DNA of 60,136 nt, taken from Meiothermus sp. (GTDB lineage: Bacteria > Deinococcota > Deinococci > Deinococcales > Thermaceae). The stretch lies in NCBI RefSeq assembly GCF_025060375.1, contig NZ_JANXCG010000056.1, forward strand, positions 1 through 60,136, in the 5' to 3' direction. Below are positions 34,312 to 35,041 of the stretch, one piece after another. Both the position numbers and the translations under genes were made by a program. The notes below the pieces were generated by a model. It saw only the letters and a list, made by a program, of their open reading frames with translations, did no database searches and was not told where the DNA came from. The stretch's first letter is position 1. Each line of letters starts with the position of its first letter.

Positions 34312-34341
34312 TTGACGGGCCAGGCCACCTGGGCTTAGCAT
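34312..34341 (+). promoter_or_regulatory. pyr operon promoter
   Basis: -35 TTGACG (34312-34317), 18-bp spacer, -10 TAGCAT (34336-34341). Start near 34348, about 148 bases before pyrR. Confidence 0.65.
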
Positions 34342-34363
34342 AACGGGCGGGCTTAGGCCCCTA

Positions 34364-34394
34364 CCTTTAAGCCGATCCGGTGAGGTCGGAAAGG
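34364..34394 (+). promoter_or_regulatory. PyrR-binding hairpin in pyr leader
   Basis: Lower stem CCTTT (34364-34368) with AAAGG (34390-34394), a purine internal loop AAG, upper stem CCGAT (34372-34376) with GTCGG (34385-34389), and loop CCGGTGAG. The run TCCGGTGAGGT (34376-34386) fits the PyrR recognition pattern UCCNGNGAGGY exactly. The lower stem includes bases of the leader-peptide Shine-Dalgarno (34391-34396), so PyrR-stabilised folding should stop leader translation. Confidence 0.8.
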
Positions 34395-34401
34395 AGTGTC
34401 A

Positions 34402-34479
34402 ATGCACGCTAAGCAGACCACAAATATTCGGTGCGCCCAAATGGGCGTGTTTTTTTTGGGCTCGAGCTGGGTAGGCTAG
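34402..34479 (+). CDS. pyr operon leader peptide
   Basis: 25-codon frame with a textbook ribosome site, AAGGAG five bases before the ATG. The peptide begins [10 protein letters not shown] and ends SSWVG. The frame runs through both arms and the T-tract of the attenuator, where TTT TTT TTG codes Phe-Phe-Leu. A ribosome translating it would prevent the terminator from forming. This is the mechanism proposed for the pyr cluster of Thermus strain ZO5. The peptide itself is unlikely to have a function. Confidence 0.75.
34431..34457 (+). terminator. pyr operon attenuator
   Basis: Stem CGCCC (34434-34438) with GGGCG (34443-34447), extended by two wobble pairs, followed by eight T residues (34450-34457). 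It is a rho-independent terminator located before pyrR and therefore conditional. Confidence 0.8.
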
Positions 34480-34495
34480 GCTTGGAGGGAAAGCC

Positions 34496-35041
34496 ATGAC
34501 CTTCAAGTCTCGCATCCTCAACGCCGACGAGGTACGCCGCGCCCTAACCCGCATCGCGCACGAGGTCATAGAGAGGAATAAGGGCACCCAGAGACTCTGC
34601 TTTGTGGGGATCCACACCCGTGGCATCAGCCTGGCCAAGCGGCTGGTGGAGCTGGTGGAGCGTTTTGAGGGGCAGCGGGTGCCCATGGGCATTCTGGACA
34701 TCACCCTCTACCGCGACGACCTGACCGAGATTGGCCTGCAGCCCCGGGTGCGCGAAACCCGCATCCCCTTTGACCTCAACGGCAAGGCTGTGGTGCTGGT
34801 GGACGACGTGCTCTACACCGGCCGCACCGCCAGGGCGGCCCTCGATGCGCTGATCGACCAGGGCCGACCTAACCGAATCTACCTGGCAGTGCTGGTGGAC
34901 CGAGGGCACCGCGAGCTGCCCATCCGGGCCGACTTTGTGGGAAAGAACCTCCCCACCTCCAGGAGCGAGGTGGTGAAGGTAAAAACCGTGGAAGATGACG
35001 GCGAGGACGCAGTAGAGCTATGGGAGATGGAGGAGAAATGA
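34496..35041 (+). CDS. pyrR: PyrR bifunctional attenuator/uracil phosphoribosyltransferase
   Basis: 181 aa RNA-binding regulator of pyrimidine genes that also has uracil phosphoribosyltransferase activity. The PRPP-binding motif [17 protein letters not shown] is complete. The N-terminal [21 protein letters not shown] and the basic segment [13 protein letters not shown] match Bacillus PyrR. It binds the leader hairpin when UMP is plentiful and so represses its own operon. GGAGGG lies seven bases upstream of the ATG. It overlaps pyrB by 4 bases. Confidence 0.95.

Follow-up and report, generated by a model that had tools for sequence, protein, structure and literature searches.

The window, by which we mean the whole 60,136-nucleotide stretch of Meiothermus DNA that was analysed, contains a pyrR-pyrB-pyrC operon with a short leader in front of it and a divergent gene upstream, and we annotate the following features in this region.

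33143-34246, minus strand: mnmA-like gene, the name being read from its Pfam domains (ORF and Pfam)
34312-34341, plus strand: promoter, TTGACG at 34312-34317, 18-nt spacer, TAGCAT at 34336-34341 (sequence read and promoter scan)
34364-34394, plus strand: predicted PyrR-binding hairpin (RF00515, minimum free energy (MFE) structure of 34362-34396, stem comparison)
34376-34386, plus strand: PyrR recognition run TCCGGTGAGGT (= UCCGGUGAGGU) (sequence; conservation in aligned hairpins)
34391-34396, plus strand: leader Shine-Dalgarno AAGGAG, whose AAGG forms the 3' strand of the PyrR basal stem (sequence; position kept in 67 of 67 leaders)
34402-34479, plus strand: leader ORF of 25 codons, stop TAG at 34477-34479 (sequence; matching frame without a stop up to the end of the terminator in 67 of 67 leaders)
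34433-34457, plus strand: intrinsic terminator within the leader frame, stem 34433-34438/34443-34448 and eight T at 34450-34457 (folding and terminator scan)
34484-34488, plus strand: pyrR Shine-Dalgarno GGAGG, in the 16-nt gap past the leader stop (sequence)
34496-35041, plus strand: pyrR, 181 aa, ATG at 34496, regulator and uracil phosphoribosyltransferase by family (NF003549, 251.6 bits, cut-off 138)
35038-35970, plus strand: pyrB, aspartate carbamoyltransferase (NF002032, 371.3 bits)
35973-37277, plus strand: pyrC, dihydroorotase (NF006841, 705 bits; ORF)

The PyrR of the window lies well above the cut-off of the curated model for the bifunctional protein (251.6 against 138 bits), and its nearest solved chain is 1ufr, a pyr mRNA-binding attenuation protein (E 6.6e-89). 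With 35038 taken as its start, pyrB would share the bases ATGA (35038-35041) with the end of pyrR, start and stop codons overlapping, so that translational coupling may extend down the operon; an in-frame ATG at 35020 is an alternative pyrB start. The mnmA-like gene is divergent and starts just upstream, and its own promoter therefore probably lies within the same short interval (34246-34312). Between 34200 and 34600 the single promoter-like site is that at 34312-34341 (shuffle mean 0.1), and the pattern TTGAC[CG]-17/18-TA[GC][CG]AT is shared by all 17 leaders from the genus of the window, its own included. A preliminary description of this DNA had proposed this promoter, followed by an exact PyrR recognition run in a two-part hairpin, and upon reading the sequence we find both correct to the base. 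The basal stem of the hairpin pairs CCUUU (34364-34368) with AAAGG (34390-34394) and the upper stem pairs 34372-34377 with 34384-34389, with an AAG bulge and a loop at 34378-34383; the window thus has the UCCnGnGAGG loop in an upper stem above a basal CCUUU/AAAGG stem by which a PyrR binding site is recognised. The CC, G and GAG of the recognition run are invariant across 43 aligned hairpins (43 of the 45 distinct hairpins, L138 from G054 and L142 from G057 being excluded). The 25-codon frame, the AAGGAG five bases before its ATG and the terminator with eight T inside the frame, all described previously, are equally evident in the sequence, and the terminator scan found one site compared with 0.4 in shuffles.

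We examined the folding of the leader RNA and its relation to known PyrR sites. Taken alone, 34362-34396 has the PyrR hairpin as its MFE structure (-11.2 kcal/mol, z -1.80, with 7 of 200 shuffles equally good), and the terminator stem has an energy of -11.1 kcal/mol (z -2.33). Folding of the RNA 34348-34500, which had been suggested as a check, bears out the proposal in part, as isolated segments give both hairpins whereas the MFE of the whole RNA has neither the PyrR hairpin nor the terminator hairpin. In the fold of 34360-34458 (99 nt) the terminator is retained and a GCCGA/UCGGU pairing displaces the PyrR hairpin; because the hairpin is displaced in the longer folds, its formation would need co-transcriptional folding or PyrR. 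Within the isolated hairpin the pairing of the Shine-Dalgarno G at 34393 and of that at 34394 is 0.93 and 0.98, respectively, at 37 °C and falls to 0.69 and 0.70 at 70 °C, from which some PyrR-independent repression would be expected at lower temperature. The alignment to the Rfam PyrR binding site (RF00515) covers 34360-34457 and scores 37.4 bits (E 5.7e-4 for a search of 221 bases), short of the gathering score of 54, which is reached nowhere in the window; as we read the alignment, the model also covers the spacer and terminator, where the window leader departs from it. A search of the genome with our hairpin model R1, which includes the window sequence, had the window site as its sole match, with no second one up to E 5. 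According to the Rfam consensus a basal stem ending in AAGG is general in PyrR sites, and the overlap with a Shine-Dalgarno sequence is on its own little proof; the diagnostic part is the start codon behind the basal-stem AAGG.

For the comparison with relatives, pyrR was found in 93 of the 111 searched genomes of the class, across five families (a phylum-wide search also gave 111 genomes). Upstream DNA was read in 90 genomes, which form the main set, and G090 was added later to give 91; G077 (contig edge) and G097 (partial match) are outside the sample. The main set consists of 67 leaders with a scored terminator, 7 that were left out, 13 direct sites and 3 genomes without a hairpin at pyrR. 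The 67 leaders have the hairpin, a start codon and a terminator of score at least 18, and come from 19 genera of four families; they are related sequences, 26 from one genus and 17 from another, so that counts among them are not independent. Entry required a start codon within 19 nt, a rule by which only G055 was removed (a wrong loop was parsed there), and the other six omitted genomes (G047, G050, G053, G098, G102 and G103) lacked a terminator of score 18; leader ORFs are present in all seven. G042, where a poor assembly splits pyrR and the leader continues into it without a frame change, is counted in the 67, and G054 belongs to the 67 and is absent from the 66 used in the antiterminator and terminator-probability tests. 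The pyrR starts in relatives were set by rule, as the start nearest the expected place, rather than from annotation. As controls we used 31 leaders from outside the Deinococci, mostly Firmicutes, obtained by similar rules for finding a hairpin and terminator and drawn from 73 loci (L007-L080 without L009) among the best 80 loci listed.

We found an ATG or GTG 6-10 nt past the basal-stem AAGG in all 67 leaders, at exactly 7 nt in 42 of them, and the leader frame stays open beyond the T run in every one. Conservation of the leader start and ribosome site in relatives, set beforehand as a test of the proposal, is thus seen in 67 of 67 leaders, and the same number keep the placement, also proposed at the outset, in which the lower stem (34390-34394 in the window) shares bases with the leader Shine-Dalgarno. 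The controls from other phyla have the same hairpin, often with AAGGA, and among them a start codon stands 4-10 nt behind AAGG in 10 of 31, and 5 of 31 have a frame that stays open beyond the T run. When the first ATG or GTG was taken blindly, 61 of 66 frames were open beyond the T run; in four of the misses (G006, G011, G046 and G054) the first start is followed by an immediate stop and an overlapping GTG opens the frame, and in the fifth (G105) the start was reset manually from GTG to the next ATG. Shuffling the linker only, over 2000 rounds, left on average 47.9 of the 67 frames open (sd 3.5, maximum 59). These shuffles replaced a whole-segment version (mean 30 of 66), which made the effect look too large, since bases of the T run were shuffled into the linker. 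The linker has a T content of 10 percent and is therefore poor in stops, which favours open reading in every frame and makes the frame test less telling, the +1 frame being open past the T run in 53 and the +2 frame in 42 of the 67. Judged from these sequences, the effect of leader-frame conservation is real but moderate. The distance from start to terminator ranges from 17 to 76 nt (median 34 nt) and the terminator is found in all three phases relative to the leader start (34, 22 and 11 leaders), indicating that indels are tolerated provided the frame still extends beyond the terminator. Constraint on the peptide is weak (crude dN/dS 0.74, from 55 pairs with shared members), and the alignments indicate that it is the open frame of the leader which is kept, rather than its amino-acid sequence.

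These observations bear on an explanation in which the leader peptide senses a supply such as that of arginine, or in which the coupling is governed by UTP-dependent pausing of the polymerase, the enterobacterial pyrBI pattern. Lys and Arg are frequent in the leader region (0.165 and 0.135), and arginine is said to raise pyr expression in Thermus ZO5; however, Arg is near the frequency predicted by base composition (about 0.13, by arithmetic) and, as the dN/dS indicates, the peptide is poorly conserved, while the T-poor linker offers no U-rich stretch for UTP-dependent pausing. Both kinds of leader were rejected on these grounds, and we regard the explanation as highly unlikely.

Next to the frame itself, the position of its end is informative. 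The leader stop lies at most 25 nt from the pyrR start in 63 of 67 leaders, compared with 21 and 26 for the other frames, and the leader overlaps pyrR in 60 of 67 with starts assigned by rule. The commonest overlaps are of 4 nt (ATGA type, 20 leaders) and of 11 nt (GTGCGCTTTAA; 25 leaders, 20 of them Thermus). The window is exceptional in that its leader stops 16 nt short of pyrR; in G008, whose PyrR is 97 percent identical to that of the window, the leader ends on ATGA. In seven further leaders, of which six lack a terminator of score 18, the stop is likewise at or near the pyrR start. Additionally, in 13 of the 90 main-set genomes and in G090, 14 in all, the hairpin sits directly on the pyrR start with no terminator between; these genomes belong to the groups f1g5, f5g17, f5g18, f5g21 and f5g22, and their hairpin-to-start distance is similar to that of the leader forms. 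The usual overlap with the pyrR start and the direct sites of some relatives both go beyond the preliminary description.

A purely translational control, in which PyrR blocks the leader, translation of pyrR is coupled to it by the stop-start overlap, and the hairpin and T run are minor for transcription, would account for the close leader stops, for the additional leaders ending at or near pyrR and for the direct sites. It fits less well with the 67 of 90 main-set genomes that retain a terminator of score at least 18 with the T run inside the leader frame, or with the window, given the 16 nt between its leader stop and pyrR. We therefore consider it unlikely as an account of this leader.

We next turn to base-pairing. 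Across the 43 distinct hairpins the upper stem shows two-sided changes in three pairs, amounting to 16 cells compared with 3.6 cells in shuffles, whereas neither the number of pairs changed on both sides (3 versus 2.1) nor the number of pair types (10 versus 10.1) exceeds the shuffles, and the basal stem has no two-sided change. For the hairpin as a whole, two of five covariation measures are not above shuffles; with few paired changes and a silent basal stem, the covariation is modest. The leader alignment that had been proposed as a check upholds the frame and the ribosome site and, to a modest degree, the upper stem; it is without paired changes in the basal stem.

A Bacillus-type attenuator, in which an antiterminator competes with the terminator, PyrR stabilises its hairpin as an anti-antiterminator and the leader ORF is incidental, would use the same PyrR site as the hairpin found here. 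When we scored pairing above 0.5 between the terminator 5' arm and the hairpin region in folding predictions, an antiterminator of this type was predicted in 7 of 66 class leaders, four of them Thermus, versus 18 of 31 leaders from outside the Deinococci. In the window the value is 0.04 and none is predicted, although such folding misses 13 of the 31 controls and is thus a weak negative for one locus. The absence of a consistent competing antiterminator, on which the preliminary description had also staked its claim, is in agreement with these predictions. Two further measures are uninformative either way: the duplex-energy z-score was dropped since the leaders from outside the Deinococci, expected to be positive, had a mean z of -0.16, and a terminator probability above 0.5 in the full RNA was found in 59 of 66 class leaders and 27 of 31 elsewhere, which does not separate the groups. 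The Bacillus-type scheme also leaves the conserved start codon, the open frame and the direct pyrR sites unexplained, and we find it quite unlikely for the window.

Together, these results favour, with a probability of roughly 80% in our estimate, a PyrR-controlled, translation-dependent transcription attenuator of the type proposed for Thermus ZO5, to judge by the comparison of leaders. The elements, their placement and their conservation are directly established, and in the window the hairpin overlaps the leader Shine-Dalgarno and the leader frame is open through an intrinsic terminator, as in that type. PyrR binding and its dependence on nucleotides would follow by analogy with known PyrR proteins, and the probable further steps are translation of the leader, a ribosome that breaks up the terminator, and restart at pyrR. 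When UMP or UTP is plentiful, PyrR on the loop would lock the basal stem, pairing the AAGG of the leader Shine-Dalgarno, such that no ribosome would load on the 25-codon leader and its internal terminator would form ahead of pyrR. When UMP is low, the stem would open and a ribosome would start the leader and trail RNA polymerase through the terminator stem, allowing transcription to continue into pyrR-pyrB-pyrC. In most relatives the leader ribosome would finish at the start codon of pyrR, where it could begin anew, and the leader may in this way also feed pyrR translation. The original suggestion that PyrR with UMP blocks leader translation and lets the terminator form gains support, short of proof, from the relatives. 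Against the attenuator speaks the short path between the leader start and the terminator, about 11 codons long (median 34 nt), which gives the ribosome little time to catch the polymerase.

Further placements of the hairpin are seen in the relatives. In three f5g22 genomes (L178, L179 and L180) a dihydroorotase-like gene has a second hairpin copy placed directly on its GTG start. A uracil-permease-like gene upstream of pyrR is preceded by a hairpin and leader ORF in three f5g29 genomes (L175, L176 and L177), the leader stop overlapping the permease ATG in L176 and L177; both gene labels come from a Pfam run on one genome of each kind. Counting leader, direct, dihydroorotase-like and permease-like cases, the 3' side of the hairpin stands at the Shine-Dalgarno position of some frame across the 91 genomes, and such placement is a prediction of a putative translation-initiation switch and not a requirement of an anti-antiterminator.

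Four genomes from two families, G050 (L183), G053 (L168), G054 (L138) and G055 (L139), have two tandem PyrR-type loops between CCUU and the AAGG of the leader Shine-Dalgarno, possibly a double PyrR site. The shared CCUU/AAGG stem is the MFE structure in G050 and differs from it by no more than 0.1 kcal/mol in G055, whereas in G053 and G054 the MFE structure is more stable than this stem by 1.7 and 1.9 kcal/mol, so that by folding energy it is clear in two of the four. For the phylum, we lean slightly towards a hairpin that acts as a movable translation-initiation switch, placed over the Shine-Dalgarno position of a leader ORF, of pyrR or of a pyrC-like gene, and giving attenuation where a terminator lies inside the leader, with the two-loop sites suggesting two PyrR units per switch. 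Outside the Deinococci, three metagenome-assembled genomes (MAGs), L044 (Actinomycetes), L047 (Omnitrophota) and L068 (Roseiflexaceae), have a hairpin with a start codon behind it, from which the frame continues beyond a weak terminator-like T run; their terminators score below 18, they are not among the 31 controls, and they may represent the same design.

The scheme itself is old. Van de Casteele and co-workers (J Bacteriol 1997) reportedly proposed for the pyr attenuator of Thermus ZO5 that a translating ribosome takes the place of an antiterminator, and our literature search, which had most subscription journals outside its reach, found no paper testing that scheme. The window resembles ZO5, as the latter is reported, in having a PyrR site, leader and terminator before pyrR, and differs in that ZO5 is said to have an extra gene between pyrB and pyrC, whereas in the window pyrC directly follows pyrB. 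What is added here is broad comparative support, at the level of sequence, across Thermus, Meiothermus and relatives, and the new elements are the leader-pyrR coupling, the direct forms and the four genomes with two PyrR loops before one Shine-Dalgarno. If the attenuator reading is true, a proposal made for one Thermus strain applies to most examined genomes of the class, and the natural occurrence of both leader and direct forms would allow a test of whether attenuation evolved out of translational repression or the other way round.

In Escherichia coli pyrBI, a leader ORF likewise passes through a terminator and a closely trailing ribosome leads to read-through, with the difference that UTP-sensitive pausing sets the coupling and PyrR is not used. 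In Mycobacterium smegmatis, PyrR reportedly acts on the ribosome-binding site (Fields and Switzer 2007), which would work like the 14 direct relatives, whereas the repressed frame of the window is a leader with a terminator and not pyrR itself. That study is cited for PyrR-dependent translational repression in a passage of PMC10672894. In Bacillus subtilis, PyrR stabilises an anti-antiterminator, as stated in a passage of PMC4347634. The window and its class share with B. subtilis the PyrR protein family and the PyrR hairpin, and differ in that no consistent antiterminator is predicted and a leader ORF is present. If our reading holds, one RNA-binding protein and its hairpin would serve three uses, namely the block of an antiterminator in Bacillus, the direct block of pyrR, and the block of a leader that guards a terminator.
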